Virus record (IMG/VR): IMGVR_UViG_3300024339_000074
Coordinates: 1-26,401 of that record
DNA length: 26,401 nucleotides
Reading direction: 5' to 3' (one strand)
Origin: a virus
A program made the translations under genes and the position numbers. The first letter of the stretch is position 1. Each line of letters starts with the position of its first letter. The notes under the pieces are model-generated. The model worked only from the letters and a program-made list of their open reading frames with translations. It did no database searches and was not told where the DNA came from. Of this stretch, positions 1-21,597 are shown in pieces.

Positions 1-348
1 ATCAAGATTGCACAGGTAGCTGGGTTTAGAAACTATGATCGTTCAGAGTTTGGACCGGTTGAACCATTAGCAGAAGATGACAAGTTAGAAACTATCTATA
101 ATCAAGAGTATTCTCTTAAAGAGTTTATTGATCCTTCTACATACAAGAGCTATGACGAACTTAATCTTAAGTTAACTCGTGTACTTGGTGAAGATGGTGC
201 AGTTACTAGTAGTGCTGAACAAGTTGATTTAGATGAGAAGATTGAGTCACCGTTTAATGATGTACCAACATCGACAATGGCCGCAGAACCTGCCGCTAAC
301 ACCGATGATACTATGAGTTACTTTGCTAAGTTAGCAGCAGAAGCCTAG
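1..348 (+). CDS. gp32: gp32 single-stranded DNA-binding protein, C-terminal part (5' truncated)
   Basis: This open frame enters from the left edge in frame 1 and ends at TAG 346-348, giving the last 115 residues. The segment IKIAQVAGFRNYDRSEF, followed by a YKSYDELN...RVLG stretch, matches from memory the end of the T4 gp32 core (KVKQVSGFSNYDESKF ... FKSFEELN...QVMG). gp32 coats single-stranded DNA during phage replication, recombination and repair, and its C-terminal tail recruits replisome partners. Here the tail is acidic and low in complexity (DLDEKIESPFNDV...), but it finishes with a short amphipathic MSYFAKLAAEA rather than T4's DDLLNDL-type end. A terminator follows directly. The zinc-binding and OB-fold core lies outside the window. 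Confidence 0.88.
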   Translation: MKIAQVAGFRNYDRSEFGPVEPLAEDDKLETIYNQEYSLKEFIDPSTYKSYDELNLKLTRVLGEDGAVTSSAEQVDLDEKIESPFNDVPTSTMAAEPAANTDDTMSYFAKLAAEA

Positions 349-356
349 TATAAATA
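349..356 (+). promoter_or_regulatory. TATAAATA late-promoter-like box after gene 32 (doubtful function)
   Basis: An exact TATAAATA starts one base after the gene 32 stop codon. It matches the T4 late promoter consensus, but the only thing downstream on this strand is the terminator about 20 bases further on. A transcript from it would be only about 40 nt long, and the next gene is on the opposite strand. It may be chance in AT-rich DNA or a relic. Confidence 0.3.
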
Positions 357-376
357 TTTAAAACACTCCTTGTTTT

Positions 377-400
377 AACCCGCTTAATTGCGGGTTTTTT
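377..400 (+). terminator. Rho-independent terminator of gene 32
   Basis: AACCCGC (377-383), a TTAATT loop and GCGGGTT (390-396) make a perfect 7-bp GC-containing stem, followed by a T run (395-400). The T tract lies only on the plus-strand side, so this stops gene 32 transcription. The minus-strand reading has no T tract after the stem. The T run overlaps the stop codon (399-401) of the convergent tape measure gene. Confidence 0.88.
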
Positions 401-2327
401 AGTATCCGGGAGTAATCATTCCTTCAGTAGGGACTCTTCCTGATAATGTAGAGTCAATTCCACCATAGTTAATGTTGTTGATAATGTTACCTGAGTTAGA
501 TGTATTGCCAGAGTTAATAACTCCAGTTTCTTTACCCTTACCAAATAGGTTAATATCTGAATCTGAACTTGGCTGGAGAGCTTGTGTACGAAGCTTTGTT
601 ACACGTTCAAGTACATCAGCTTGTGATTGTGTTTGGGCTCCAACGAATGTAGTATTAGGAGATAATAAGTCTAGTTTATCCTTGGTTGAATCCATTACAC
701 TAGAACCACTATTCTCAAGTTTATCAATCTCTTGTAATACTTGATATATGTCATACGCTGAGTACACTAATAATGCAGCTGTTAATAATGGTCCACCTAA
801 TACTGATCCTGCTAACAACGGCATCCGCATAGTGATCATACTAGCTAGTTTCTTCCAACCCATCTTAGCTGCTACTTTATTAGCTAATGAAAACAACTTC
901 ATAAAGGATGGACCAGAGGACTTCAATGCAGCTTTCTTAGCTGCGGTAGCAACAGCTTTCTTTTTAGTGGCTGAGACAGCCAACTTTTTAGATGCAACAG
1001 CGGCTGCTTTCTTGGCAGCTGCTTTCTTGGCAGCTTCTGCAGCTGCTTTCTTGGCTGCTTTCTTGGTAGCTTCTGCAGCTGCTTTTGCGGCTGCTTTCTT
1101 GGCAGCTTTCTTGGCAGCTGCTTTCTTGGCAGCTTCTGCAGCTGCTTTCTTGGCAGCTTTTGCGGCCAATTTCTTTTTAATTAGTGCATCAGCTGCTTTC
1201 TTAGCGGCATAGGCGGCAGCCCCTGTCTCTAATAAACCAGCACCAGTTGAACTCGGTACTACGGATTTAGGTATTACTCTATTACCACCACGACCACCCC
1301 TCTTACCGCTAGCACGAAGCACGATCTTTCTATTTTCCCTAGCTTCTTCTTTCCTTGCTAGTTTATCTCCTTTACCTTGATCCCTCAAGTCTTCTAACAG
1401 CATAACTGTCTTCTTACCTTGATCTACTTGAGTATCTTCCGCCTTTTTAGACTCGTGCTTGTTTGGGAGGTTTCCAATTAGTGTTTGCTGAACCTTTACG
1501 TGTTTCATGTACAGGTCAGCCATAGCACCTTCTCGTTGATCATCAGAAAGGTTAGCATCCCTAGTTATCTTAATGAATTCAGCCATAGCAGCCTGGTTAC
1601 CAGGAATAACCTTTTCCAGAGTATCAAGCATGTGTTTAGTTCTAGGATCATTTCCCTCGATTAAGTTATTATCTTTATCGAACTTCATGTCTTTAAAGAT
1701 GGCTTTAAGTACTGATAAATCGCGTGTTTGGGATTTGTCTTTAGTAGTCTTATCCCAAAGTTTTAATAATTCCTTCCTGGTTAGAGTCTCACCAGTTTCA
1801 GAGTTTTTAAATGAACCATTCTTATCGAGTCCTGAAACACTGGTTATGTTAAACTTTTCGAGGAAGTCCATTTGAGCCATACCTACAGAACGGTGTTTCT
1901 TAATGCCATCATTATGTTCTTTAGATGCAATCTTTAATCGATCAGCTTGTTGTTGTTTACTATTACCCATGAAGTCTGAATGAAATCTAATTACACCATC
2001 TCTAATAGCACGCAAGCCTGCTTCATTTCGAGCGTTCTGCTCAACCATGAACTTAGCTGAATCTTTATCAGTATCGACAAGTTCTCGAGTTTGCTTATCT
2101 GTTCTATCGATATTATCTTTGTTACTAACGCGGTCGTTAGCTAACTGCAATCCTTCAATTACGTTTAATACTTTAACGTTTTTGTTTAGTTCATCAAGAA
2201 CCTCTCTCAATTTATCAAAACCTCCTTCAAGGTTCTTCATTGAATTCTTAGACTTATCTAAAGTAGATTGCATTCTATTCTGCTGCTCTTTATTTTTTAG
2301 ACTTGATCCATTCCTATTTGCCGGCAT
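399..2327 (-). CDS. Probable tape measure protein (gp29-like role)
   Basis: This is a 642-residue protein starting at ATG 2327, with GAGGA about 9 bases upstream; it overlaps the end of the gp51-like frame by 14 bases. The first ~370 residues are charged and look mostly helical. Residues about 372-468 are almost entirely Lys/Ala blocks (KKAAAKKAAKKAAAKAAAE-type). Residues about 499-530 are hydrophobic (MPLLAGSVLGGPLLTAALL...) and could cross a membrane. The tail is Asn/Gly/Ser-rich and ends in ITPGY. I recognise no direct homologue. The tape measure call rests on position directly after the paired gp26/gp51 chaperone frames, on the helix-plus-membrane-segment architecture, and on a length close to T4 gp29 (590 residues). 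At about 1.5 Å per residue it would fit a tail near 95-100 nm. It could instead be another internal virion protein. Confidence 0.66.
   Translation of the reverse strand: MPANRNGSSLKNKEQQNRMQSTLDKSKNSMKNLEGGFDKLREVLDELNKNVKVLNVIEGLQLANDRVSNKDNIDRTDKQTRELVDTDKDSAKFMVEQNARNEAGLRAIRDGVIRFHSDFMGNSKQQQADRLKIASKEHNDGIKKHRSVGMAQMDFLEKFNITSVSGLDKNGSFKNSETGETLTRKELLKLWDKTTKDKSQTRDLSVLKAIFKDMKFDKDNNLIEGNDPRTKHMLDTLEKVIPGNQAAMAEFIKITRDANLSDDQREGAMADLYMKHVKVQQTLIGNLPNKHESKKAEDTQVDQGKKTVMLLEDLRDQGKGDKLARKEEARENRKIVLRASGKRGGRGGNRVIPKSVVPSSTGAGLLETGAAAYAAKKAADALIKKKLAAKAAKKAAAEAAKKAAAKKAAKKAAAKAAAEATKKAAKKAAAEAAKKAAAKKAAAVASKKLAVSATKKKAVATAAKKAALKSSGPSFMKLFSLANKVAAKMGWKKLASMITMRMPLLAGSVLGGPLLTAALLVYSAYDIYQVLQEIDKLENSGSSVMDSTKDKLDLLSPNTTFVGAQTQSQADVLERVTKLRTQALQPSSDSDINLFGKGKETGVINSGNTSNSGNIINNINYGGIDSTLSGRVPTEGMITPGY
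1011..1153 (-). repeat. Lys/Ala-coding direct repeats inside the tape measure gene
   Basis: A 44-base segment at 1011-1054 recurs exactly at 1110-1153, a spacing of 99 bases or 33 codons. Shorter copies of the same GCTTTCTTGGCAGC-type unit fill the surrounding ~940-1205. On the coding strand they encode KKAAAEAAKKAAA-type blocks. Exact in-frame repeats of this kind allow unequal recombination that changes protein length. Confidence 0.85.
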
Positions 2328-2448
2328 TTGCTATGTCCTCGTTAATTTGCTTAATAAGTAGACTAGTGTAAATTTCACGTTCCCAAGGGAGCATGTTATC
2401 CAACTCTAATAAACTGTATTTGTGCTCCTCCATCAACGAAAAATTCAT
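2314..2448 (-). CDS. gp51-like tail assembly chaperone segment (44 residues from its own ATG)
   Basis: This small frame reads MNFSLMEEHKYSLLELDNML and then PWEREIYTSLLIKQINEDIA up to TAG at 2316-2314. The YSL..LDNMLPWEREIY pattern is the kind seen in the short gp51-type hub assembly proteins that follow gp26 in T4-like phages. The frame stays open upstream of its ATG for 14 codons, back to the slippery run at 2496-2490. It is in the exact -1 frame of gp26. The ATG has AGGA directly abutting it with no spacer, inside a small TCCTA/TAGGA hairpin (2448-2460), so independent initiation looks poor. It is probably made mainly as the C-terminal part of a gp26 frameshift fusion of 292 residues (2314-3191). 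It overlaps the tape measure start by 14 bases. Confidence 0.78.
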   Translation of the reverse strand: MNFSLMEEHKYSLLELDNMLPWEREIYTSLLIKQINEDIANAGK

Positions 2449-2483
2449 CCTATAATAGGACTCTAATGATTCATGCGAAAGAG

Positions 2484-3191
2484 CTATATAAAAAAATCTA
2501 TAATTCCTGTGTAACTAAACTTCTCTTTATGTCCACACTTAGAACAAGTAAACTCACTTGAGTATTCTACGTATGGAGCCATTAATAAATAATCAACAGC
2601 TTGTTGAAACTGGGCATTACTAAACCCCTCTACAAACTCAATCCTTTCTTCAATTGGTGTGTCCGCTGCGTTATAGGTTTCTTCCCCATAATATACAACT
2701 GCTAAAGCTGTCGCGACACTTTTAATTAAAACTTCTGTATCTGAATCTTTACTATTATAATCAATTTTATTACCTAATGTAGGGTAATTCAATTCTAACG
2801 ATAAGTCGTCAGACAATCTAATAATACCGTCTTTAGGACTATGATCAATAACTGTTACTGTACTAATATCAATAGTAACATCATTACTAGCATCACACTC
2901 TACACAAGTCTTAAGAATATCAATCTTATCACCTACACTCTTACCGCGTAATTGTAAGAAGATGTATTCCAAATCACAATTGGTTAATGTATTAACATCC
3001 CCTTTATAATCCAAACACTCCGCCACCAGATCGATTAATGCTGTTTGAATTAGATCCGAGTCTTCTGACTCTGACGCAATCATTAATATCTTTTCTTCCC
3101 TAACTAAATAAGGTCTGTATGATACTCTCTCTTTCGTAGAGGGTATAATTAAACTGTACTTAGGTACAGATAACTTTGGTAATGTATTCAT
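2484..3191 (-). CDS. gp26: gp26-like baseplate hub assembly protein / tail assembly chaperone
   Basis: A 235-residue protein with GGAG 8 bases before ATG 3191; T4 gp26 is 208 residues. It looks like the T4 baseplate/hub family (Pfam T4_baseplate type): N-terminal LPKLSVPKYSLIIPSTKERV, a central region with CVEC (C96, C99), and a C-terminal CSKCGH pair (C216, C219). The two CxxC pairs could form one zinc site. In T4, gp26 acts with gp51 in hub assembly and is not a major part of the mature tail. Its position just before the gp51-like frame and the tape measure protein matches the G/T chaperone order of other tailed phages. The last codons form a slippery T heptamer, so some ribosomes should read through into the gp51-like frame. 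Confidence 0.82.
   Translation of the reverse strand: MNTLPKLSVPKYSLIIPSTKERVSYRPYLVREEKILMIASESEDSDLIQTALIDLVAECLDYKGDVNTLTNCDLEYIFLQLRGKSVGDKIDILKTCVECDASNDVTIDISTVTVIDHSPKDGIIRLSDDLSLELNYPTLGNKIDYNSKDSDTEVLIKSVATALAVVYYGEETYNAADTPIEERIEFVEGFSNAQFQQAVDYLLMAPYVEYSSEFTCSKCGHKEKFSYTGIIDFFI
2490..2496 (-). other. Putative -1 ribosomal frameshift site, T_TTT_TTT
   Basis: The minus strand reads GAT TTT TTT ATA TAG at the end of gp26. The seven T residues (2496 down to 2490) sit in the gp26 frame as a perfect X_XXY_YYZ heptamer, two codons before its stop. After a one-base backward slip, reading continues TAT ATA GCT CTT into the gp51-like frame without a stop to 2314. A TCCTA/TAGGA hairpin lies about 30 bases downstream, further than classic stimulators, so no normal stimulatory structure is evident. 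Confidence 0.75.
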
Positions 3192-3212
3192 AATATATCT
3201 CCATTATAAAAT

Positions 3213-3929
3213 TTAAAATAATCCTTTCACTTGACCCACTGTAGCATCAAATATATCTCTGCCTTTTGAAACTAAATCGGTAAACCCGTCTAGCAATCCT
3301 ACTTCTTCCCAATCATCAAATGATAATGTTATTGAACATTGTATTACACTATTCTCTGTTGTATTCGATAATTCAATTGCATTTACAGCAATAGGGAATG
3401 CATTCTTTAACTTAACAGAGTATGCTGGAATAACATCATTTGATGGTGTTAATTGTTGTATAGTAACATCTGTTACATAATCGTTCTTATAACTAACCTT
3501 TAAAGAGTCCTGATTAACCACTAATGATTGCCATGAATCAAAATACTTCTTAGCAAAGTAATCATTAGTAAGAATAAATGAAAAGGTAACCTCATCAACT
3601 AAGTATGAATAAGGTTTCTTAATAGCTTTATGTGTAACGAATGATTCCATTGCAGCAATACGTTTACCGGGCAACTGAACACTCTCACACAATAAGAACA
3701 TATCCCGAGGATCATTAATAAATGCCATAGGGTCAACAGAACCACCAGACAGCAATGAACCAGCCACGTTAGATACTAAGCCACCAATATCCATATTGAT
3801 TAAGCCAGGACCTAATGCATTCTTCATATTAGGGTGGGTAATATATATGGCGAATCTATTAGCTCTTGCTAAACCACCGCGTTTTCCGATTGTTGATTTT
3901 AAGGCATCAATGCCGACAGGTAAACTCAT
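3213..3929 (-). CDS. gp54: gp54-like baseplate tail tube initiator
   Basis: A 238-residue protein with AGGAG upstream of ATG 3929, which follows directly on the upstream gene's TAG. The order of elements resembles T4 gp54 and the tail tube fold in general. There is an N-terminal RANRFAIYI strand, then LCESVQLPGKRIAAMES and a VDEVTFSFILTNDYFAKKYF segment before a long helix (DSWQSLV). VKLKNAFPIAVNAIELS and a final strand set (SVIQCSITLSFDDWE) complete the fold. gp54 sits on gp48 and templates gp19 tube polymerisation. T4 gp54 is 320 residues, so this is a short form. A Gly/Ser-rich insert lies near residues 50-65. Since gp19, gp48 and gp54 share this fold, a tube protein role is the alternative, but size and neighbourhood favour gp54. 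Confidence 0.72.
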   Translation of the reverse strand: MSLPVGIDALKSTIGKRGGLARANRFAIYITHPNMKNALGPGLINMDIGGLVSNVAGSLLSGGSVDPMAFINDPRDMFLLCESVQLPGKRIAAMESFVTHKAIKKPYSYLVDEVTFSFILTNDYFAKKYFDSWQSLVVNQDSLKVSYKNDYVTDVTIQQLTPSNDVIPAYSVKLKNAFPIAVNAIELSNTTENSVIQCSITLSFDDWEEVGLLDGFTDLVSKGRDIFDATVGQVKGLF

Positions 3930-4514
3930 CTACCACTTACTCCTTGAATCTTTCCAAACTTTAGACTTCTTAGCTTTAGCAAAGTTCTCAGTAGGTAGGA
4001 ATATTGCTATGTCCCACTCTGACGCTTCTACCTTCATTATCTTAGAATCCACTTGAGATGTTAAATAGTGTTTAAAACATGGAGCAAAGTATTTAAACTT
4101 AGATGCTCCTTTTAATAATGCATAACTCAATTTTAATCGAGTTGTCTCATCATACCTTTTATTATTAGCAATGGCCGACAAATTATCTAAGAATATAGCC
4201 CTTTGCTTTAATGGTAGGTAATGTAAGTTCAACCCATAGAATCCACCAGGAGCTTTATCAACCATGATGGTTAATGGGAACCTATCATAATAAGGTAAGG
4301 TCTTTCTATGCTTTGGATCATACGCATACATAAACATATCGCCAACTCTAGGGCGAGACTTCTTAACTAACCTATCGTCCTTCATCATCTTATGCATGTT
4401 AATCTGACCCATGCCTTGTACTTGTTTTCTAAACCACGTCTGCGCTTCTTTAGATCTTTTACTAAGACCTTTACGGAACGCTTCTGATTCTAGTTTATCG
4501 AATAAGCTACCCAT
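3930..4514 (-). CDS. Conserved T4-type late protein of unassigned role
   Basis: A 194-residue basic protein. Clear features are RPRVGDMFMYAYDPKHRKTL, PYYDRFPLTIMV, FYGLNLHYLPLKQRAIFLD, and a C-terminal ASEWDIAIFLPTENFAKA before a Lys/Ser-rich end. I recognise this pattern as recurring in marine T4-like phages but cannot fix a function. It lies directly between gp4 and gp54. In T4, gene 2 (DNA end protector) and gene 53 flank gene 4, and gp53 is accounted for elsewhere here, so a gp2-like DNA-end or neck role is possible but unproven. It is first behind a TATAAATA box (4550-4543) and has no Shine-Dalgarno sequence, only an AT-rich leader of about 22 nt. Confidence 0.6.
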   Translation of the reverse strand: MGSLFDKLESEAFRKGLSKRSKEAQTWFRKQVQGMGQINMHKMMKDDRLVKKSRPRVGDMFMYAYDPKHRKTLPYYDRFPLTIMVDKAPGGFYGLNLHYLPLKQRAIFLDNLSAIANNKRYDETTRLKLSYALLKGASKFKYFAPCFKHYLTSQVDSKIMKVEASEWDIAIFLPTENFAKAKKSKVWKDSRSKW

Positions 4515-4542
4515 ATTTATTTGTATTGTTTATCATATTACT

Positions 4543-4550
4543 TATTTATA
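4543..4550 (-). promoter_or_regulatory. T4-type late promoter for 3930-4514 and downstream minus-strand genes
   Basis: An exact TATAAATA on the minus strand, ending 28 bases before ATG 4514. The box overlaps the stop codon (4548-4546) of gp4. The transcript should start near 4537. It would drive the 194-residue protein, gp54, gp26/gp51 and the tape measure gene. Confidence 0.75.
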
Positions 4551-5058
4551 ACTTTTTTTTTACCTTTATCCTTTTAAAAGACTTCCATATCTTCTTACCG
4601 GTTTTGGTCTTGGATACTTTGTTCTTCATAGTCATTAAGTTAATACCAAATGACTCTAATGTATTCTCTGTCCAGATCTCAAACTTATAACCTCTATCAT
4701 CACAATACCTTTTAGCATACTTCCACTTAGAGGTATTCTTCATATAGGCTAAAGCTTCATTAAGGTTCTTTCTCTTAGGTGGTTGGGTTTGTTGGGCGGG
4801 TTTTATTTCAACCAAGACAACCTTTCCATCCATCCTCTTAATAGTTAAATCAATAAAATATCTATGAGGCTTCTTGTCAGTAGAACAAATGTATGGTATA
4901 ATGGTCTCTTCTGAATTCCACCACTTAACCCAACTTTGCTTTTCAATCCACTTAAAGGTTTGTTTCTCCCAATAGGATCTGTATGTAACCTTAGTATGAT
5001 CACCATTGTATTTTTCTGGATACTTAACTTTGTATTTTCCGCTGTAAGTTTTTCTCAT
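4546..5058 (-). CDS. gp4: gp4 head completion nuclease (TnsA-like PD-(D/E)XK fold)
   Basis: A 170-residue protein; T4 gp4 is about 150. It opens with GKYKVKYPEKYNGD and YRSYWEKQ, typical of gp4, and has the layout of TnsA N-terminal type endonucleases. Candidate catalytic residues are E31 in SYWEK, D70 in HRYFIDLTI, and E84/K86 in VLVEIKP, with SEETIIPYICSTDKKPHRYF between them. The C-terminal ~50 residues are strongly basic. In T4, gp4 (also called 50/65) acts after packaging to ready the filled head for tail joining. It is the first gene of the minus-strand block, behind an imperfect late box at 5095-5088. It has no Shine-Dalgarno sequence before ATG 5058. Confidence 0.85.
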   Translation of the reverse strand: MRKTYSGKYKVKYPEKYNGDHTKVTYRSYWEKQTFKWIEKQSWVKWWNSEETIIPYICSTDKKPHRYFIDLTIKRMDGKVVLVEIKPAQQTQPPKRKNLNEALAYMKNTSKWKYAKRYCDDRGYKFEIWTENTLESFGINLMTMKNKVSKTKTGKKIWKSFKRIKVKKKL

Positions 5059-5064
5059 AATCTG

Positions 5065-5072
5065 TATAAATA
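5065..5072 (+). promoter_or_regulatory. T4-type late promoter for gp48-gp53-gp27-gp5
   Basis: An exact TATAAATA 28 bases before ATG 5101. The transcript should start near 5078-5079, leaving a leader of about 22 nt without a Shine-Dalgarno sequence. The box lies within the early transcribed region of the opposing minus-strand promoter. Confidence 0.8.
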
Positions 5073-5087
5073 AGTATTATTCATAAC

Positions 5088-5095
5088 TATTTATT
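5088..5095 (-). promoter_or_regulatory. Near-consensus late promoter for gp4
   Basis: The minus strand reads AATAAATA, one mismatch from TATAAATA, 29 bases before the gp4 ATG at 5058. The transcript start would be near 5082. It faces the plus-strand box at 5065-5072, so the two polymerase footprints would overlap. Confidence 0.5.
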
Positions 5096-5100
5096 CGACT

Positions 5101-6240
5101 ATGGGAAACCCATTTCAAAGTATATCTGACACAGTATCTGATTTTGCAGGAGATGTTGCTGATGCTTGGAATCGTCCAGGTAAAACAAGTGGTGGTGAAG
5201 GTAAGTACTTATCATACCCCAATTCTTTAGGCAATTCATCTGAATCATCATTTGAGTTTAATTCAGATGTTGTAGATGGTGACCTTAATAAATACACAGA
5301 CGCTAGGGCTGAAGATGGTGGTAGTAACTCTCCAGATCCTTTTATTATGTTCGAATTCTTTAGAGTTATAGAACCTGACTATGTCGCTAAAGCACAATTA
5401 GCGAGTGACATAAGCCATCTTAATACAACTAGTGTCAGCTTGACTCAGGCTAATCGCCAAGAAGCTATAGATGGGAAACAGTTAGCAATAAATGCCCTCG
5501 AGAAAAGAAAGGCAGAAATTATTGAAATGAAGGGTAAGAAGAAGCTTAATGAAACGGTAGCCCTTTACATGACTCCTGCTATCTCTGTTAATGATAGTAT
5601 GAATTACGAGCAAGAGTCCAGAAAATTAGCTGCTATGGCCGAAGAAATTAATAAGAACGGTATTTTAGGCGTGGGTGATAATTTCAGCAAAGAAGACGTT
5701 CAACTTGGTGGTGCATTAGCTGCAGGAGCTATCGCTGGTGGTATCGCATATAAACTTGCCGACTTATTGCCTGGTAACTCAGCAGCTTTGGCTACTGCAG
5801 GTGTTGCTGGTACTGCCGGTAATGCCTTTGGTGAAGAGGTTCTGAGACAGATGGGTAAGGCTTTAAACCCTAATGAGTACATGCAATATAAAACTACTCA
5901 ATTAAGAGCATTTACCTTTACATGGAAAATGCTCCCTGATAGTATTCAAGAATCTCTCGATTGTGAAGACATCGTTAGAATCTTTAGGGGGGCAGCTCAT
6001 GCTAATAGAAAGAGTCCCGTTACTTTGACAGTACCAGACCAAGTTGTTGTGTCGTTTCATGGGGTTTCTGGTATCCCTGCAATGCCTGCAATGGTTATAA
6101 CAAATGTATCTGTTACCTATAACCCAAATGCAGCATCATTCTTTAAACAAAATAACAATCCTGTAGAAATGGACTTAAGTGTTACCTTAAACGAAGTAAT
6201 GCCTATATACAGAGATGACGTTGAGATAAAAGGATATTAA
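5101..6240 (+). CDS. gp48: gp48-like baseplate tail tube cap
   Basis: A 379-residue protein; T4 gp48 is 364. The N-terminal part has YLSYPNSLGNSSESSFEFN and PDPFIMFEFFRVI, then a charged helical segment (about residues 110-150). A Gly/Ala-rich hydrophobic stretch follows at about 200-245 (GALAAGAIAGGIAYKLADLL). After NPNEYMQYKTTQLRAFTFTW comes KMLPDSIQESLDCEDIVRIF and a final tube-like domain ending in MDLSVTLNEVMPIYRDDVEI. The Y-P-x-x-LG start, the Gly-rich helix and the NPN...LR.F.F.WKM.P.S motif are the pattern I associate with gp48 of marine T4-like phages. gp48 caps the hub and, with gp54, starts the tail tube. It is the first gene of the plus-strand operon. Confidence 0.78.
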   Translation: MGNPFQSISDTVSDFAGDVADAWNRPGKTSGGEGKYLSYPNSLGNSSESSFEFNSDVVDGDLNKYTDARAEDGGSNSPDPFIMFEFFRVIEPDYVAKAQLASDISHLNTTSVSLTQANRQEAIDGKQLAINALEKRKAEIIEMKGKKKLNETVALYMTPAISVNDSMNYEQESRKLAAMAEEINKNGILGVGDNFSKEDVQLGGALAAGAIAGGIAYKLADLLPGNSAALATAGVAGTAGNAFGEEVLRQMGKALNPNEYMQYKTTQLRAFTFTWKMLPDSIQESLDCEDIVRIFRGAAHANRKSPVTLTVPDQVVVSFHGVSGIPAMPAMVITNVSVTYNPNAASFFKQNNNPVEMDLSVTLNEVMPIYRDDVEIKGY

Positions 6241-6243
6241 GAT

Positions 6244-6966
6244 ATGAGTTACTTTTCAAACTTTCAAACAATACCATATGATTTAAATGGAGATGGTGTA
6301 TATGATATTGTAACAAACTTAACAAGTTTTGTTGCCGCTTCTGAATCTTTACTAAATCAACAAACGTTTTATAATTTTGTACAGGTGCAAGACGGTGAAC
6401 GAATTGAACAATTGAGTCAAAGGTTATATGGCACTACCAGTTATTATTGGACCTTTATAGTAATTAATCCAAATATTAAAAACATTTGGAATGATTGGCC
6501 TAAGAACTCTGCACAATTAATAGATTATTCTATTTACAAGTATGCGGACTTTGCTGCTCTTGCTTGTTCGTGTACCGATGATCTTTTAAATAAGTTTATT
6601 GTTGGTGAGTATGTTCAAGGTGTTTTATCTGGTGCTATCGGTCAGTTGTTAGCAGTACATACTAATGACAAATATATTACGATTAAGCTTATTTCTGGTG
6701 AGTTCTTAGAGCAAGGCGAAGACTTATTTGGTTTAGAATCACAGGATACTATTACGGCTACTGAGGTTGTAAGTAGAGCATACGCACCTAAGTATCATGT
6801 TGATGATTCGACAGGGGATATTACAGCTCCGCGCCTCGCTGGCACTCATAAGGTTACTAACGTCGAACACGAATCATATTTGAATGACGCAAATAGATAC
6901 GTTAGAGCTATTCGACCTGAAAAGATTGATGAATTTGTTAATGAGTTTCAAAGAGAACTTGCATAA
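6244..6966 (+). CDS. gp53: gp53 baseplate wedge protein
   Basis: A 240-residue protein with AAAGGA upstream of ATG 6244, three bases after gp48. The start MSYFSNFQTIPYDLNGDGVY and the segment FYNFVQVQDGERIEQLSQRL, followed by YGTTSYYWTFIVIN, are the LysM-like signature of gp53. gp53 joins adjacent baseplate wedges and contacts gp25, gp6 and gp7 in the T4 inner baseplate. It is longer than T4 gp53 (196 residues). The extra length includes a small beta-rich insert (about residues 110-180, FIVGEYVQGVLSGAIGQLLA onward) before a terminal helix. The stop overlaps the next ATG. Confidence 0.85.
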   Translation: MSYFSNFQTIPYDLNGDGVYDIVTNLTSFVAASESLLNQQTFYNFVQVQDGERIEQLSQRLYGTTSYYWTFIVINPNIKNIWNDWPKNSAQLIDYSIYKYADFAALACSCTDDLLNKFIVGEYVQGVLSGAIGQLLAVHTNDKYITIKLISGEFLEQGEDLFGLESQDTITATEVVSRAYAPKYHVDDSTGDITAPRLAGTHKVTNVEHESYLNDANRYVRAIRPEKIDEFVNEFQRELA

Positions 6967-8084
6967 TGAAGGTATCAGCTTTTAAAGTATCTATTGGATA
7001 TACTGATGGAACATCTATCGATATAACTGATTCTGTATTATATGTTAACATAGAGGAAAATCTATTTGGATTCTTGGCAGGGAATTTATCTATTGTAGAT
7101 GGATTAGGAATATTAGATTCAGCTATTACTAATAGAAATAATATTATTATAGAATTTGAATATTTAAAATCAAAAGTTAAACAATCATTTTATTTAGATG
7201 GTGTGAATTCGATAGACAGTACAACCAGCCTAACTAAGAAAACATATGTAATTAACATTAAAGCGATTGATACTATTTTAAATTCCATGAAATTAGTATC
7301 TAAGTCCTTTAAGGGAAGAAGTACTGATATAATAAAGACTATATTTGACGAATCTTTTAATACCAAGCTGAAAGTGTTAACAGATTCTCTTACCCAAGGA
7401 CATTATATTGCCCCTAATGTTTCCCCTTCAACAGCAATTGCCCAAGTTCAGAATCGTGCTTATGATTTAAACCAGAATCCGTTTTTCTTATTCCAAAGAC
7501 TCGTTGATAACAAATCTACTTTCTTAACATCCTTGGGTCAAATAAATGATCAGATGACTTCTGCCGTAATCTCTACACAAATTCAAAATAGTGAAACTGT
7601 GGATAAGGTTTTAAAGAACATAGGACAACCAGCTAGTATTATCATCCATTCTGATAATGATAAACAAGCACAGAAGATAGCTGGTGGTGTATATGGTAAG
7701 AACATTGTTAATTTAGACGTGTCTAATTCTACTGTTACTAATGAAGCATATGGTGCATCTACTAATTCTACGAGCAAGCTTAACTTAGTACGTCCTGATA
7801 TGTTTGATAACGATTCAAAACCCCTATTACATAATGGAGATTACAGCAATTTGTGCAAGATGCAAACTATATTAAATCTGTTATTCAATACAAAAGTAAC
7901 TGCTTACGGATGTCAAGCTATTCCTGCTATTGGTGTGGGTAATAAAGTAGAGTTGCAAATACATCAGAATAGACAAGGTCAAGGTCCATCTGATAAATTC
8001 TCTGGCAATTACATTGTATCTAAAATAGTACATAGAATTGAAGATAATGAATACACCCAAACTATTGATTTGGCAAGAGGTTAA
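6966..8084 (+). CDS. gp27: gp27-like baseplate hub protein
   Basis: A 372-residue protein; T4 gp27 is 391. Translation is coupled to gp53 (TAATG overlap) and gp5 follows after two bases, the pairing expected for hub and spike. It begins with a beta-rich domain (VSIGYTDGTSIDITDSVLYV, then IEENLFGFLAGNLSIVDGLG). It then has FLFQRLVDNKSTFL and ends with SGNYIVSKIVHRIEDNEYTQ TIDLARG, a closing strand pattern usual for hub proteins. gp27 trimers form the hub ring between the gp5 spike and the tail tube. The call is from fold pattern and order rather than strict sequence identity. Confidence 0.75.
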   Translation: MKVSAFKVSIGYTDGTSIDITDSVLYVNIEENLFGFLAGNLSIVDGLGILDSAITNRNNIIIEFEYLKSKVKQSFYLDGVNSIDSTTSLTKKTYVINIKAIDTILNSMKLVSKSFKGRSTDIIKTIFDESFNTKLKVLTDSLTQGHYIAPNVSPSTAIAQVQNRAYDLNQNPFFLFQRLVDNKSTFLTSLGQINDQMTSAVISTQIQNSETVDKVLKNIGQPASIIIHSDNDKQAQKIAGGVYGKNIVNLDVSNSTVTNEAYGASTNSTSKLNLVRPDMFDNDSKPLLHNGDYSNLCKMQTILNLLFNTKVTAYGCQAIPAIGVGNKVELQIHQNRQGQGPSDKFSGNYIVSKIVHRIEDNEYTQTIDLARG

Positions 8085-8086
8085 TT

Positions 8087-9052
8087 ATGGATTTACATTA
8101 CGGAGTTATCGAAGATATAAATGACCCTAAGCGATTAGGAAGAGTTAAAGTGCGAGTTGTTAATGTACACTCGGCTGATAAGAATTTAATACCAACAGCG
8201 GATCTTCCTTGGGCTATTGTTATGGCTGGAACTAACACGCCTGGTATATCAGGGTTAGGTCACTCTACATTCTTAGTACAAGGTTCTTGGGTTGTAGGTA
8301 CATTTACCGATAATGATCTCCAAGCGTTTATGGTTATGGGTACACTCCCATCGGTATCGAATAAAGAAGAGACACCGGTGTCATTTGGTTTTACAGACCC
8401 TGATGGTATATACCCTAAAGAAGTATCAACCCCTGATAACAATATTAGAGTAAGAGATACAGATACTCCATATATTAAAGAGAAAGATGAGGCTTATGAA
8501 TACGGTAGAGTTGAAATGGTACCGTTGTATGATTCAGAAGGTGTTGAAGTTGATAAAGGGTATTACTATAAAGGTGATTCAAGACAAACGCTTCAACCAC
8601 CAACAATGTATGCACCAGAATATACATTTAATAATATGTACGAAACTAAGTCGGGTCACTTTAAAGAGTATGATGATACTCCTGGATCAGAGAGAATACA
8701 CGAAAGACATAAGAGTGGTTCATCATATGAAATAGAACCTAATGGATCAAAGATAGAACGGGTGGTTAATAATAACTATAAGGTTGTATTTGGTCACGAT
8801 ACATTAGAGGTTACGGGTAATGTAAGAATTATTGTTAGTGGCAATGCTGATATTGATGTTATGGGTAAGACAACCCTTGATTGTCCCAATACCCATATAA
8901 CGGGTGAATTAAGAGTGGATGGTAATATATCATGTGGTAAGGATGTATACACTGATGCTGTTGTATCTCTTAATAATCACACACATCCAGGTGATGGCGG
9001 TGGTGGATTAGCCGCCCATGCAGCTTCAACTGGTTCACCTAATGCGACATAA
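8087..9052 (+). CDS. gp5: gp5-like baseplate hub spike, without lysozyme domain
   Basis: A 321-residue protein with AGG 6 bases before the ATG. Residues about 1-95 are the gp5/VgrG OB-fold: HYGVIEDINDPKRLGRVKVR, PWAIVMAG, GSWVVGTFTD. A linker with KEDEAYEYGR-like and GDSRQTLQPP segments follows. Then comes a strand-repeat needle (about 205-295; KVVFGHDTLEVTGNVRIIVS, ADIDVMGKTTLDC, HITGELRVDGNISCG). The end is NNHTHPGDGGGG with H298 and H300, an HxH that could bind a metal at the spike tip. T4 gp5 is 575 residues because it carries a lysozyme between OB fold and needle; nothing here resembles it. The spike therefore probably only punctures, with wall hydrolysis supplied elsewhere if needed. 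Confidence 0.87.
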   Translation: MDLHYGVIEDINDPKRLGRVKVRVVNVHSADKNLIPTADLPWAIVMAGTNTPGISGLGHSTFLVQGSWVVGTFTDNDLQAFMVMGTLPSVSNKEETPVSFGFTDPDGIYPKEVSTPDNNIRVRDTDTPYIKEKDEAYEYGRVEMVPLYDSEGVEVDKGYYYKGDSRQTLQPPTMYAPEYTFNNMYETKSGHFKEYDDTPGSERIHERHKSGSSYEIEPNGSKIERVVNNNYKVVFGHDTLEVTGNVRIIVSGNADIDVMGKTTLDCPNTHITGELRVDGNISCGKDVYTDAVVSLNNHTHPGDGGGGLAAHAASTGSPNAT

Positions 9053-9055
9053 CCT

Positions 9056-9063
9056 TATAAATA
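9056..9063 (+). promoter_or_regulatory. T4-type late promoter directly before gp25
   Basis: An exact TATAAATA with only 6 bases between its end and ATG 9070. T4 late transcripts start about 5-7 bases after this box, so the message would begin at or beside the gp25 start codon, a leaderless mRNA. Confidence 0.72.
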
Positions 9064-9069
9064 AGTCAT

Positions 9070-9468
9070 ATGGCACAAATATCACAAACCTACAATTATT
9101 CTGATATAGATTTTATCTATAAGCTTAATCCTAATACAGGAGACATTTCTACCAAGAAAGGTATTAATGCTGTAAAGCAGAGTGTATTAAATATACTAAG
9201 AACCAATTACGGTGAACGCCCATTTAATCCACATTTTGGTGCTAACTTAAGACCATTCTTATTTGAGAATATCAACTATGTTACTGCTGCAGCAATATCT
9301 AGTCAAGTTAAATTAGCAATTACGAATGATGAACCCAGAGTTAAAGTATTAAATGTGAACGTAAAAACATTCCCTGATAGGAATGATGTCCAGATAACAG
9401 TAACAATTCAAATTATATCAACTGGTGCAACCACTGATATTTCAACCACATTAGAGAGACTACGATGA
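9070..9468 (+). CDS. gp25: gp25 baseplate wedge protein
   Basis: A 132-residue protein, the same length as T4 gp25 (132). It has the gp25/lysozyme-like fold signature: INAVKQSVLNILRTNYGERP at about residues 29-48, FNPHFGANLRPFLFEN, and NDEPRVKVLNVNV, containing the conserved E-P-R, at about 88-100. A final beta strand and ERLR close it. gp25 bridges the sheath, gp6 and gp53 and helps nucleate sheath assembly; it is conserved in contractile systems including type VI secretion (TssE). No Shine-Dalgarno sequence is seen before the ATG, and a late promoter lies 6 bases away. The stop overlaps the gp6 start by four bases (ATGA). Confidence 0.93.
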   Translation: MAQISQTYNYSDIDFIYKLNPNTGDISTKKGINAVKQSVLNILRTNYGERPFNPHFGANLRPFLFENINYVTAAAISSQVKLAITNDEPRVKVLNVNVKTFPDRNDVQITVTIQIISTGATTDISTTLERLR

Positions 9469-11321
9469 GTAATAATAGAAGAATTAATGCATCAGAATTA
9501 GATTTTAACGAATTAAAAGCTAATTTAATTTCATACATGCAAGAGCAACCTGGAGCATTTCAAGACTATAACTTTGAAGGTGCTGCAATGAATACTATGA
9601 TTGATGTGTTATCATACATCACCCATATTAACTCTATTAATGCTAACTTTGCTTTGAATGAAACATTCCTAGATACTGCACAGTTAAGAGAGAGTGTTGT
9701 ATCACATGCTAAGCTATTGGGTTATACACCTCGTTCAACTAAACCTTCTATAGCTGTTGTTAACATTGAAATGGTTGCACCTACTAACATTCAAGATGAC
9801 CATGGCAACTACCTACCATTGAGTCTAGTTAGAGGTACAGTATTCACTACGACTATTAACTCTGTAACATATAAACTTATTGCTGAATCTACTCACACAA
9901 CAACACGTGATATTAATGGCAAATACATCTTTGAAGGTGTTAAGTTAATGCAAGGCCAGTTAAACAATCGTACATACATTTATGATGAAACAGGCTTTGA
10001 GCATTACTTGTTGCAAGATAATTATGTTAATACAGATACAATGATTGTTGAAGTATACGAAAGTCAAACATCATCTAAGTATGATACGTTCGCTAACATC
10101 CCAAATATTATTGATATTGATAAGTCATCAACTGCTTACTTTTTAGAAGAGTCGAGATCTGGTTTTTATGAGATTAAATTTGGTGATGGTATTATTGGTA
10201 AAAGATTAACCCCAGGTAACATCATTAAAATAAATTACCTTACCGTTGGTGAGACAGATATTAACGGTGCATCAATGTTCTCATTAGCTGATACTATTAA
10301 TGGTAACACCGATGTTATTATTACAACAACCCAAAAGGCTGTTGGTGGTGCAATCGCAGAGAGTACAGATTCAATTAAATTTAATGCTCCATTAGGTTTC
10401 GTTGCTCAAAATAGAGCAGTAACCCCAGATGACTATAAAGGTATTATTCAAAACTCATACGGCAACATCGATACATTAACTGTTTGGGGTGGTGAAGATA
10501 ATGTTCCACCTGACTATGGTAAAGTATATATTTCAATTAAGCCATTAGACGGTGAGTTCTTAACAGCTGAAGAAAAGGCTGAGATCATTGGTGTACACCT
10601 AAAACCAAAAAACGTTGTATCAATCACACCTGTTCTTGTTGATCCAAAATACACATACATCGACTTAGAGGTATATTACAAATATAACCCTAACATCTCT
10701 AATGCTACAGAAGCTGCTTTATCAGAAAGAATTAGAGCAACACTACAAAAATATGATTCTGATAACTTAAAATCATTTGGTGGCGTATTTAGAAACTCTA
10801 ATGTACTTCAATCAATTGATTCTACGGATGTTTCAATTGTATCAAATATTACCCGTGTGGCAATGTATCAAATGTTTACTCCGATCTTAGGACAAGAGAA
10901 GTACTATGAGTTTAACTTTAACCAACCATTAGCTCCTTTATACGGTTCTACCAATTACATATCATCTACAGAATTTACATACAATAATGAAATCTGTGTT
11001 CTTAAAGATTACTTTAATACAGAGGAATCGAGAAACATTATTCAAGTTGTAAACCATAATAATAAGATCCTTAATCATACCGTTGGATATGTTGATAACC
11101 TTACAGGTAAGATTACTTTAGAAGGATTTAACTTAGATACTGTTGTTGGTTTAACCGATATGTTAAAACTTAAAGCTAAACCTGCATCGAATGATATTAG
11201 CCCTATGAGAAATGAACTATTAGTTGTTGATTATAATAACGTTATTATCAGAGGTGAAATTGATACTATGGTTATTGGTGGTACAACTGCTGGTATTGAT
11301 TACACTACAGTGAGTAGTTAG
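9465..11321 (+). CDS. gp6: gp6 baseplate wedge protein
   Basis: A 618-residue protein; T4 gp6 is 660. The N-terminal ~100 residues have the gp6/gpJ pattern: LDFNELKANLISYMQEQPGA, AAMNTMIDVLSYITHINSIN, LRESVVSHAKLLGYTPRSTK. The middle has GFVAQNRAVTPDDYKGIIQN and TLTVWGGEDNVPPDYGKVYI (about residues 310-360). KPKNVVSITPVLVDPKYTYI DLEVYYKYNP follows, the usual baseplate J-like C-terminal core. gp6 dimers form the continuous ring that holds the six wedges together. It is translationally coupled to gp25. The next gene starts one base after its stop. Confidence 0.92.
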   Translation: MSNNRRINASELDFNELKANLISYMQEQPGAFQDYNFEGAAMNTMIDVLSYITHINSINANFALNETFLDTAQLRESVVSHAKLLGYTPRSTKPSIAVVNIEMVAPTNIQDDHGNYLPLSLVRGTVFTTTINSVTYKLIAESTHTTTRDINGKYIFEGVKLMQGQLNNRTYIYDETGFEHYLLQDNYVNTDTMIVEVYESQTSSKYDTFANIPNIIDIDKSSTAYFLEESRSGFYEIKFGDGIIGKRLTPGNIIKINYLTVGETDINGASMFSLADTINGNTDVIITTTQKAVGGAIAESTDSIKFNAPLGFVAQNRAVTPDDYKGIIQNSYGNIDTLTVWGGEDNVPPDYGKVYISIKPLDGEFLTAEEKAEIIGVHLKPKNVVSITPVLVDPKYTYIDLEVYYKYNPNISNATEAALSERIRATLQKYDSDNLKSFGGVFRNSNVLQSIDSTDVSIVSNITRVAMYQMFTPILGQEKYYEFNFNQPLAPLYGSTNYISSTEFTYNNEICVLKDYFNTEESRNIIQVVNHNNKILNHTVGYVDNLTGKITLEGFNLDTVVGLTDMLKLKAKPASNDISPMRNELLVVDYNNVIIRGEIDTMVIGGTTAGIDYTTVSS

Positions 11322-11322
11322 A

Positions 11323-12576
11323 ATGGCTGAAAATTACTTTAATATATCTTCATTTGTAGATGACTTAGTACCAGAACACGTAGCTACTAGTTATCCAGAG
11401 CTTGTTGAGTTCATTAAGGTATACGCTTTATACTTAGAGCATAAGAATAAATCATCATTTTATCTTAACCAATTAGATCATCAAAGAGACATTGATTTAA
11501 TTGAAGATGAATTGTTAACAGAATTACAGAATGAAATTGGTGTACCTATTCCAAGAAACTTTGCGGCTAGTCCTCGAGTATTCTATAGACACTTAGTTGA
11601 ATTTTATAAGTCACGTGGAACACCAGAATCAATAACTGCATTCTTTAGATTAATATACGACGATAATGTAGAAGTATATTATCCTAAAGTTGATATGTTA
11701 ATACCATCGGATGGTAAGTGGTATGATTTAACAGATAACATTAAAGCAGATCCATCAGCACATACTCCTGCATATACATATACAATTAGTGCTATATCTA
11801 ATATAGTTGAAGGTGCCGATGATATTGGCTTTAAATTAGACATCGAAAAAGATGTTGTATTTGTTAATAGTGTACTAGTTGAAAACGGCGATTGGCATGG
11901 TGGGTTTTATATTGACAATGATGAGTGGGTCAGTTATATTAAATTTGATACAGCATTAGCAATAGGTGATGTAGTACAAGTTTACAAATCAGGACTATTT
12001 ACCACAGCTGATGGTTTTGCCTCAGATAAGAAATATATCCAAGATTCATTCTTTTATCAGAAGTTTTCATATGTATTAAAGACTGGTAAGAGTATTGTTG
12101 ATTGGAAGGATGCATTTACAAGATTAGTTCACCCATCAGGATTTATTTTCTTTGGTGAGATCCTTATCTTTATCGAGATGTTAACCTCGGCTAATAACGC
12201 AACACAGCCTGGTTATCAAGCGAGTGGTTTACCGAGAAATCTTTATATCGATGTGATTTCTTCTAATCCGTCTGCAATTACTCTTATAGATGTTATTAAG
12301 TCATGGACTGATTTTTATGGTAATGTATTTACTGATACGGATACCATTAGTAAATACACTTGGAATTTAGATCAAGGTACGTATGTAGAGAAAGAGTTAA
12401 TGCACGACTTCGATGTTGTGACACAAGTCGGATTTAGAGATCATTTCGATAATACTAAATTCATAAACTATAGACCTATAAGCGAATATAGTAATTTAAC
12501 ATTTGAAGATGTTATAAATAAAACTATTAGAAGAACACAACTTGGTTGTGCAATAACACAAACCGCAATAATATAA
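11323..12576 (+). CDS. gp7-like baseplate wedge protein (P2 gpI-like core)
   Basis: A 417-residue protein placed between gp6 and gp8, where T4 carries gene 7. The first ~130 residues hold FNISSFVDDLVPEHVATSYP ELVEFIKVYALYLE, a helix-rich acidic stretch, then FYKSRGTPESITAFFRLIYD and VEVYYPKVDMLIPSDGKWYD. This short-helix signature is common in tail protein I/gp7-like wedge cores, where gp7 bundles with two gp6 copies. T4 gp7 is 1032 residues, so this would be a minimal form with a different C-terminal half (about 230-417: FFYQKFSYVLKTGKSIVDWK, then WNLDQGTYVEKELMHDFDVV). The family call is from pattern and order. A TATAAATA box lies inside its 3' end. Confidence 0.62.
   Translation: MAENYFNISSFVDDLVPEHVATSYPELVEFIKVYALYLEHKNKSSFYLNQLDHQRDIDLIEDELLTELQNEIGVPIPRNFAASPRVFYRHLVEFYKSRGTPESITAFFRLIYDDNVEVYYPKVDMLIPSDGKWYDLTDNIKADPSAHTPAYTYTISAISNIVEGADDIGFKLDIEKDVVFVNSVLVENGDWHGGFYIDNDEWVSYIKFDTALAIGDVVQVYKSGLFTTADGFASDKKYIQDSFFYQKFSYVLKTGKSIVDWKDAFTRLVHPSGFIFFGEILIFIEMLTSANNATQPGYQASGLPRNLYIDVISSNPSAITLIDVIKSWTDFYGNVFTDTDTISKYTWNLDQGTYVEKELMHDFDVVTQVGFRDHFDNTKFINYRPISEYSNLTFEDVINKTIRRTQLGCAITQTAII
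12513..12520 (+). promoter_or_regulatory. Possible late promoter for gp8, inside the gp7-like gene
   Basis: An exact TATAAATA within the last 70 bases of the upstream gene, 66 bases before ATG 12587. It is in coding sequence (part of Val-Ile-Asn-Lys), so chance is possible, but the distance and direction suit gp8. Confidence 0.5.
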
Positions 12577-19092: not shown

Positions 19093-21594
19093 ATGCCAAA
19101 TACAGTTAATATATCTCTGACTAATACCTTTGAAGAATGGAGGGTTAAGGATAATGAAATTGGCGCTGCTTTAGGCGATCTAGATAACATTAATTCAAAT
19201 GCAAAGACTGGTGAAGACACAGTTGTTGCAACCCTTAACAATTTAAGAACTGAAACAACTAATAACGCTGGTTGGATTGGTGATATATCAACTCTATTTG
19301 ATGGTTATGGTAATGTAGTAGCTGCAGCTAATAATTCTGATACTAGATTAAACACAAAAGATACTGAGCAAGGTGCCATTACAGGTCTTACTCATTATGC
19401 TACATATCCTACATTAGTAGGAACATTAAACTCACATGATTCCCGATTAGATACAGCTGAAACTAATATAGGCACTATCGGTGATATTGATAGCACTTTA
19501 TCAACAACCAATTTAGTTGGTGCGGTTAATGCTAATAAAGATTTCATTGATCAAATTTCAGCTGCTTCAGGTATATCATTAACGACTACATTCGGTGATG
19601 TATATAATGGCACACAAACCTCAGTATCGGGTGCACTGAATAATGACTATGCTAGATTAAATAAGATCAATGGATTAATTGGTGGTACCCAAACAAATGG
19701 TACTACTGTTGATTTTGCCTCTGCTGATTTATATGGTACTCATACTAACTTAGTATCGGCAATCAATGGTATTGAAGACTTTGTATTAACTAATTCTAAA
19801 TGGGATGGTACCAATGATAAGTCATTAATATGGGCCCTTAACAATCATGAATCTAGATTAGATACAGAAGAATCAAATGTTGATGCATTACAAGTGGACC
19901 TTGGTACTTGGAGTACTTATGAAAACCTTATGGCAGCTAACAGCTGGACTGAAGGTAACATTACCGATGCTATCATTGATATTAGAAATAGACAAGATAA
20001 TTTAACAGGTGATTTTGTTAATGCATCTGGTGATACCTTAACAGGTAACTTAAACTTCACAACAGGCGGTGTTCAAGCAACCGGTCAATACTTAAATATA
20101 GGTGTTGGTGGAACTAATACAATTCGTATTAACACATCTAATAGAGTGGGTGTTGGTAAAGCTGCACATTCATCGTATAAGTTTGATGTGTCTGGAACAT
20201 TAAATGCTACTGATCTTAAGATTGGCGGTGAGTCTTTAGATGATAGATTCTTAGAAGTTAATACTGTATCTAGTTGGGACGAAATTGGTGCCCAAGTTAA
20301 ATTCAATAATAACACCACGTTCGCTGATGAAGTTAAATTAGGGACAAAGGTAATATATAATAGCTCGTTATCATTTGATGAAGTTGTTCAAGATATCTCC
20401 GGTGGTATGTTTACGAGTAACACAGAATCTGGTGGTGTATGGGCTTCATACTCTGATTCAACGGGTAAGGTTACATTAGGTATTACTGATGATGGTCATA
20501 ACCATGTATGGGGTAATATAGACAACGCTACTGAAACGGTGCAAGATATTGTTGGTGGAATGGTTACTAGTAATTCTGAAAGTGGTATCCAAGTTGTGTA
20601 TCAAGATGGTGATGGTACCTTAGATTTTAATGTTAATGATCCAACAATTACCTTGACAGGTGATGTAACTGGCTCTGCAACTATGTCTAACTTAGGTTCG
20701 GTGTCAATTGCTACAACAGTATCTGCTAATAATGTTGCATTAGGTACTGATACAACAGGTAACTATGTTAAGAAAGGATCTACTAGTGGTTCTGGTATTT
20801 CTGGTTCAGTTGATTCTGAAGGTGGAACATTCACAGTATCATCTAATGCAACCTCGGGTAACACAGCCAATACAATTGTATATAGAGATGCGTCTAGAAA
20901 CTTCTCTGCTAATAATATCACAGTTAATACTATGTCATCATCTAGTGTATCAACTGGTAGTATTAGTTGTGATGCCATTACCGCTAATGGTGCTATCACG
21001 GTTAATGCTAACGATAACGCATCATATATTTACATGCATGACAGTGATCATGGGTCAAGAACAATACATTGTAATTCTAATAACATTGGCTTCTTGAATC
21101 AAGCTGGAAGTTGGAGTTCATATGCAGATGATACTGGCAATTGGAGATGTGCGTTTGATATATACGCCGATGGCGGTGATATGTATGCTAGCACATTCCA
21201 TGGTAATGCATCTACAGCTAATTACGCTGACCTTGCGGAGAACTATAGGGCTGATCAAGAGTATGAAGTTGGTACTGTATTATCATTTGGCGGTGGTTGG
21301 GAAGTAACTCAATCAAATAAAAAGGTTGATACTAGAATTGCAGGTGTTGTATCTACAGAGCCAGCATATCTTATGAATGCCGAGCAACAGGGTGAATTTA
21401 TTACTCCGGTAGCTTTAATGGGGAGAGTCCCATGTAAAGTCCAAGGAGCTGTCAGAAAGGGTGATATGCTGGTTTCTGCTGGTAACGGCAGAGCACGAGT
21501 TGTTGATACCCCCCTTATGGGATCGGTGATTGGTAAGGCCTTAGCCGATTCAGATGGCGATAACATTATCGAAGTGGTAGTTGGAAAACTATAA
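19093..21594 (+). CDS. Tail fibre-like protein with a peptidase-G2-type C-terminal domain
   Basis: An 833-residue protein. Residues ~1-275 repeat a helical unit with NxxLVGALN/VGAVN and NNHESRLDTxExN cores (LVGTLNSHDSRLDTAETNIG; WALNNHESRLDTEESNVDAL), probably a trimeric coiled coil. A beta-rich shaft follows (SGDTLTGNLNFTTGGVQATG). Two VQDIxGGMxTSNxESG modules lie near residues 429 and 482, then DPTITLTGDVTGSATMSNLG. From about residue 712 (YADLAENYRADQEYEVGTVL SFGG to RVPCKVQGAVRKGDMLVSAG and VIGKALADSDGDNIIEVVVG) is a domain widespread at fibre ends of marine phages. It resembles the auto-cleaving peptidase G2/intramolecular chaperone type; cleavage here is inference. It is likely a distal tail fibre or receptor-binding protein. 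Confidence 0.78.
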   Translation: MPNTVNISLTNTFEEWRVKDNEIGAALGDLDNINSNAKTGEDTVVATLNNLRTETTNNAGWIGDISTLFDGYGNVVAAANNSDTRLNTKDTEQGAITGLTHYATYPTLVGTLNSHDSRLDTAETNIGTIGDIDSTLSTTNLVGAVNANKDFIDQISAASGISLTTTFGDVYNGTQTSVSGALNNDYARLNKINGLIGGTQTNGTTVDFASADLYGTHTNLVSAINGIEDFVLTNSKWDGTNDKSLIWALNNHESRLDTEESNVDALQVDLGTWSTYENLMAANSWTEGNITDAIIDIRNRQDNLTGDFVNASGDTLTGNLNFTTGGVQATGQYLNIGVGGTNTIRINTSNRVGVGKAAHSSYKFDVSGTLNATDLKIGGESLDDRFLEVNTVSSWDEIGAQVKFNNNTTFADEVKLGTKVIYNSSLSFDEVVQDISGGMFTSNTESGGVWASYSDSTGKVTLGITDDGHNHVWGNIDNATETVQDIVGGMVTSNSESGIQVVYQDGDGTLDFNVNDPTITLTGDVTGSATMSNLGSVSIATTVSANNVALGTDTTGNYVKKGSTSGSGISGSVDSEGGTFTVSSNATSGNTANTIVYRDASRNFSANNITVNTMSSSSVSTGSISCDAITANGAITVNANDNASYIYMHDSDHGSRTIHCNSNNIGFLNQAGSWSSYADDTGNWRCAFDIYADGGDMYASTFHGNASTANYADLAENYRADQEYEVGTVLSFGGGWEVTQSNKKVDTRIAGVVSTEPAYLMNAEQQGEFITPVALMGRVPCKVQGAVRKGDMLVSAGNGRARVVDTPLMGSVIGKALADSDGDNIIEVVVGKL

Positions 21595-21597
21595 ATA
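21590..21597 (+). promoter_or_regulatory. T4-type late promoter directly before the 111-residue gene
   Basis: An exact TATAAATA that contains the stop codon (21592-21594) of the fibre gene and ends 5 bases before ATG 21603. The predicted transcript start falls at or within a base or so of that ATG, giving a leaderless message. Confidence 0.7.

Follow-up and report, generated by a model that had tools for sequence, protein, structure and literature searches.

The 42-bp gap between the divergent gp4 and gp48 genes of a 26,401-base virus record (the window, i.e. the whole stretch of DNA analyzed) is best explained as two T4-type late promoters packed head-on, with their shared use by turns a by-product of the packing rather than a dedicated switch. 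We assign this reading a probability of about 80%. Here, both promoters would depend on a gp55-class sigma factor and be activated by the sliding clamp, one serving gp48 and the genes downstream of it and the other serving gp4 and its own downstream genes. Head-on packing would give each gene a leader of ∼23 nt inside the 42 bp, and each −10-like box would at the same time be part of the leader of the opposite gene. We infer that both promoters are active and that one polymerase at a time opens the site, such that the two operons would use it alternately. Single occupancy is suggested by the size of the complex, which in its activated form is described as reaching 13 bp further upstream (PMC2988020).

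The window carries late structural genes of a T4-like phage (only such genes were seen in the 26 kb). The gap spans positions 5059 to 5100 and is flanked by gp4, the head closure protein (4546 to 5058, minus strand; phrog_218, E = 6e-47), and gp48, the baseplate tail tube cap (5101 to 6240, plus strand; phrog_230, E = 2e-33). When positions 1 to 12000 of the window were compared with the phage collection at the DNA level, zero matches were obtained. At the protein level, the closest relatives of its gp6 were found in the Melnitz group of Methylophilales phages and in the Pelagibacter phages HTVC008M and Mosig, with identities of 34–36%. The annotations of HTVC008M include a late sigma factor, a putative late promoter transcription factor, and a polymerase processivity factor.

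Two 8-bp boxes of the T4 (gp55-dependent) late type, for which A at −13 was tolerated, lie on opposite strands of this divergent gap, each preceding the gene that it would serve. The gp48 box, TATAAATA, occupies 5065 to 5072 on the plus strand, 36 nt from the gp48 ATG, and the gp4 box, AATAAATA, occupies 5088 to 5095 on the minus strand, 37 nt from the gp4 ATG. The boxes are 15 bp apart and face each other, and the coordinates and strands given for them in the initial annotation were correct. The sequence directly downstream of both boxes is AT-rich, and the gap as a whole is 81% AT. Given that the T4 late box is numbered from −13 to −6 (PMC1524935), the predicted starts are 5078 on the plus strand and 5082 on the minus strand, with five overlapping bases. 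These positions agree within one base with the near-coincident starts proposed earlier (about 5079 and 5082). The complementary 5′ ends that had also been proposed would thus amount to 5 nt, which is likely too short to matter.

No Shine-Dalgarno-like 4-mer was found in the short leader of gp4 or gp48 in the window. In both of these leaders, unlike those of Mosig and Melnitz, the Shine-Dalgarno place is taken by UAUUUAU, the complement of the box on the other strand. A nine-codon frame (MNNTYLYRL; 5055 to 5084, minus strand) opens 11 nt past the first base of the gp4 box, and its stop overlaps the gp4 start in an ATGA. This frame was not adopted as a leaderless reading because its AUG would be at −2. 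With box-to-ATG distances of 37 and 36 nt, neither gp4 nor gp48 of the window has its own AUG at the predicted +1.

The head-on layout is not new. A scan of divergent gaps in 14 genomes or contigs revealed face-to-face boxes in the window, in two relatives from viral_contigs (L041 and L054), in Mosig, and in two gaps of T4. The first T4 gap (NC_000866, 77338–77384; 47 bp) resembles that of the window in having gp4 on one side and two facing TATAAATA boxes, 34 and 36 nt from the start codons. It differs in that the partner gene is gp53 rather than gp48 and in that the boxes are 7 bp rather than 15 bp apart, so the predicted RNAs would not overlap, unlike those of the window. The gp4/gp53 head-on pair is also present in T-even phage 107, where ribosome-binding sites are annotated in the gap, whereas none were seen in the window leaders. 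The second T4 gap, inh/segE (NC_000866, 112008–112056; 49 bp), likewise has facing boxes, 35 and 36 nt from their genes, but lies between other genes and has its boxes 6 bp apart. According to a review, inh is preceded by a late promoter, and the non-coding region before segE also contains a promoter (PMC2988022). Facing NATAAATA boxes also occur in the gp4/gp48 gaps of Mosig and Melnitz, where box-to-ATG distances of 32/48 and 41/51 nt, respectively, leave longer leaders than in the window, with Shine-Dalgarno-like sequence. Melnitz is a weak example of the layout because its gp4-strand box, 51 nt from gp4, overlaps the gp48 start codon.

The face-to-face gaps measured (window, L041, L054, Mosig, Melnitz, and T4) were 41–50 bp long, compared with 52–61 bp for five back-to-back gp4/gp48 gaps of the predicted leaderless type described below. 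Head-on packing is the tightest arrangement seen for keeping two leadered late promoters. Another compact layout, in which back-to-back boxes overlap and share bases (TATTTATAAATA), was observed at the gp4 junction of L066, L072, and phage Va1 (L325).

The initial annotation had proposed that the layout functionally couples the gp48-hub operon to the gp4 operon by mutual exclusion, and a selected coupling of this kind would keep tail hub proteins in balance with head completion proteins. Several observations are in keeping with such coupling: the predicted starts at 5078 and 5082 overlap and share the melting region; head-on pairs recur at the gp4 junction of T4, phage 107, Mosig, and Melnitz; and gp4 is divergent from a baseplate gene in 7 of 9 further T4-like records. 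The two exceptions are Aes012, in which a homing endonuclease precedes gp4 and which was left unscored given this co-directional gene, and Va1, in which the neighbor is annotated as gp13. The exact box pair was absent from the gp4 junctions of P-SSM3, S-MS29, phi-pp2, EC-W2, Moby, and Magnus, where only variants such as CTAAATA occur, a box type known from phage Aeh1. The junctions of the cyanophages P-SSM3 and S-MS29 therefore went unscored as face-to-face candidates. In Syn9, zero boxes were found in the 12 divergent gaps listed.

Conservation of the paired boxes was assessed with relatives of gp48 and gp4 taken from viral_contigs, the three gp4 searches contributing the best 80 each of 267, 243, and 311 matches. 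A total of 254 loci, including the window, HTVC008M, Mosig, and Melnitz, were processed by script; three were unusable (two without a gp4 match and one with too short an upstream stretch). The loci resolved into 76 distinct gp4 contexts, which include near-relatives, so that the counts do not represent independent events. Among the matches listed, 65 of the 76 contexts have back-to-back promoters, with a gp48 box and a gp4 box 12–14 nt before the gp4 ATG, and two further contexts have the gp4 box at this distance without an opposite box. Most IMG/VR relatives thus share the gp4/gp48 pair and the gp48 late box with the window but differ from it in a gp4 box that lies between gp4 and the gp48 box and is predicted to give a leader-free mRNA. 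The face-to-face layout was found in only six contexts among the matches listed, namely two of the window type, L041, L054, Mosig, and Melnitz. The remaining three have neither layout; in L010 and L152 the leaderless position still carries a remnant, TAAATA, and the third, HTVC008M, is rearranged.

In a gp4 tree with 65 rows, at least four changes are needed to account for the face-to-face state, even when only well-supported branches are considered. The layout switches between close relatives and is not conserved here; for example, the gp4 of L054 (face-to-face) is 96% identical to that of the L002 group (back-to-back). Such poor conservation argues against a switch maintained by selection. 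Mutual occlusion itself is likely, and this part of the earlier proposal is sound as a physical argument, given that an initiating polymerase would cover the other box. It is not specific to the head-on layout, however: back-to-back pairs 5–8 bp apart would block each other as well, so exclusion is not a distinctive contribution of the head-on arrangement. Selected coupling is accordingly considered improbable, and the leaderless alternative, which the initial annotation missed, is the better lead.

An equally doubtful alternative holds that the plus box alone is a promoter, with the minus-strand AATAAATA a chance match in AT-rich DNA and gp4 transcribed from elsewhere. The bare motif NATAAATA is not enriched across the window (14 matches against 17.0 expected from shuffles), and a gp4-strand ATAAATA arises in 6% of gap shuffles. 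Both boxes together, by contrast with the single motif, were present in 0.4% of dinucleotide shuffles of the window gap (P = 0.004), and the corresponding values for the shuffled gaps of L041, L054, Mosig, and Melnitz were 0.006, 0.0025, 0.014, and 0.001, respectively. It is the placement of the boxes, not the bare motif, that exceeds chance. In T4, all 29 boxes found within 8–70 nt upstream of called genes lie at 20–69 nt, most commonly at 35–36 nt, and the window distances of 36 and 37 nt fall at this peak. Gene calls followed a simple rule: the longest frames opening with ATG were taken if they had ≥60 codons, and where frames overlapped, length decided.

The A at −13 that sets AATAAATA apart is a normal variant, being the commonest deviation among the T4 late promoters tabulated in PMC2988020 (9 of the 50 sites listed). 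Five viral_contigs records match a near-exact pattern of the gap with one free base. The plus box is better conserved in place than the minus box, TATAAATA being retained on the plus strand in those listed relatives whose gp48 start is covered. The gp4-strand box of L041 and L054 is nonetheless placed similarly to that of the window, at 36 nt, despite a differing inner sequence, and a late box on the gp4 strand is present in 73 of the 76 contexts among the matches listed (67 at 12–14 nt and six face-to-face). Moreover, gp4 is the first gene of its strand in the window. That the boxes, complementary at 7 of 8 positions, are instead the arms of an imperfect inverted repeat acting as an operator or RNA hairpin is very unlikely, as the inner 15 bp are symmetric only in part, neither RNA, if begun at its predicted start, would include the two arms together, and the late-promoter motif itself makes up the arms on both strands.

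The gap alone illustrates the compression of divergent late promoters in T4-like phages; the leaderless comparison that it prompted matters more. Given a gp4 box 12–14 nt before the ATG and T4 numbering of −13 to −6, the gp4 mRNA of most relatives would be leaderless. Taken together, the spacing data make it probable that the T4-like phages of the pelagi- and methylophage type possess a second class of late promoter that starts at the AUG. This class would comprise leaderless gp4, gp2, gp25, and HTVC008M gp48, with gp2 in some cases coupled through a small ORF, and the window would have lost the gp4 case. The reading assumes that the T4 start rule is valid for the polymerase and sigma factor of these phages. 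mRNAs with a 5′-terminal AUG have been described in Escherichia coli (PMC4965119); no report of leaderless late mRNAs in T4-like phages or pelagiphages was found in the open-licence literature searched.

The distribution of box distances in HTVC008M, Mosig, Melnitz, and the relative G016 is consistent with such a class. A total of 111 boxes were found 8–70 nt upstream of called genes in these four genomes; 22 lie at exactly 13 nt and three at 14 nt, with no more than six at any other distance. As a rough figure, the chance of 22 boxes at one distance would be 6e-18 if distances were uniform. Boxes at 13–14 nt account for 8/23 in HTVC008M, 6/32 in Mosig, 8/26 in G016, and only 3/30 in Melnitz, as compared with 0/29 in T4 and 0/17 in Syn9. 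Searches for box-N5-ATG against a reversed control gave ratios of 39:2 in 15 IMG/VR relatives, 9:1 in HTVC008M, 8:0 in Mosig, 4:0 in Melnitz, and 7:3 in G016; the values for T4, Syn9, S-PM2, and P-SSM4 were 2:0, 1:1, 2:1, and 2:2, respectively. In the four related genomes, a Shine-Dalgarno-like 4-mer precedes 1 of 25 genes with a box at 13–14 nt versus 42 of 49 leadered late genes, although the former figure is partly forced because the box fills that space. A leaderless placement of the sigma-70-like motif TATAAT was also considered and rejected, as no comparable single peak at 12–13 nt was seen in these genomes (six matches in HTVC008M and four in Melnitz at distance 6, and three in G016 at 12).

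The 13-nt spacing is maintained when the neighborhood of gp4 changes. In L038 and L049, gp4 lies behind a different, co-directional gene, and the distance from box to ATG is still exactly 13 nt. This box comes after a terminator-like hairpin and a T-run, and thus no other late box lies between the terminator and gp4. In one survey, attempts to predict middle and late promoters in pelagimyophage genomes are described as unsuccessful (PMC7029224). The 13-nt rule makes many pelagimyophage late promoters recognizable and predicts leaderless late translation in marine relatives of the SAR11 and OM43 phages.

In the lineage of the window, leaderless gp4 would have been lost by the change to the face-to-face layout, whereas the leaderless state would have been kept at gp25, at an ORF spanning 21603 to 21938, and, through a mini-ORF, at gp2. 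A TATAAATA box at 9056 to 9063 on the plus strand lies 14 nt before the gp25 ATG, for which no leader or a 1-nt leader is predicted. A second, at 21590 to 21597 on the plus strand, lies 13 nt before the ATG of ORF 21603–21938, which is likewise predicted to be leaderless. In three further genomes (G001, G004, and G005), a box is found 13–14 nt before ORFs with a similar N terminus.

The strongest support for the predicted class comes from gp2, the DNA end protector (3930 to 4514, minus strand; phrog_429, E = 4e-56). In the window, its TATAAATA box (4543 to 4550, minus strand) is 36 nt before the gp2 ATG, and a nine-codon mini-ORF, MINNTNKYG (4507 to 4536, minus strand), begins 14 nt past the first base of this box and ends with a stop that overlaps the gp2 start. 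Equivalents are present in 11 other distinct gp2 contexts. Overall, the ATG of gp2 itself is 12–14 nt after the box in 21 of 37 distinct gp2 contexts, and a mini-ORF of 6–9 codons starts from an ATG at 13–14 nt in 12, window included, its stop overlapping the gp2 start in 12/12. In the remaining four, a box lies ∼190 nt upstream, and a frame of 63–64 codons that begins exactly 13 nt after it extends into the gp2 start, its stop TAG lying within ATGGCTAG. An AUG is therefore present at about the predicted +1 in 37/37 contexts. Whenever gp2 does not itself start at +1, the mini-ORF or small ORF that does so, which ends on the gp2 start codon, would be leaderless and would couple gp2 to leaderless initiation. 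Mini-ORFs as a general trait of leadered late genes were considered and rejected, as an ATG at 13–14 nt is rare among leadered boxes (1/12 in HTVC008M, 3/26 in Melnitz, 1/27 in Mosig, and 0/16 in G016). The small ORF that occupies the leaderless position before gp2, 13 nt after the box, in the four contexts with the longer frame (L075, L160, L255, and L259) is membrane-like.
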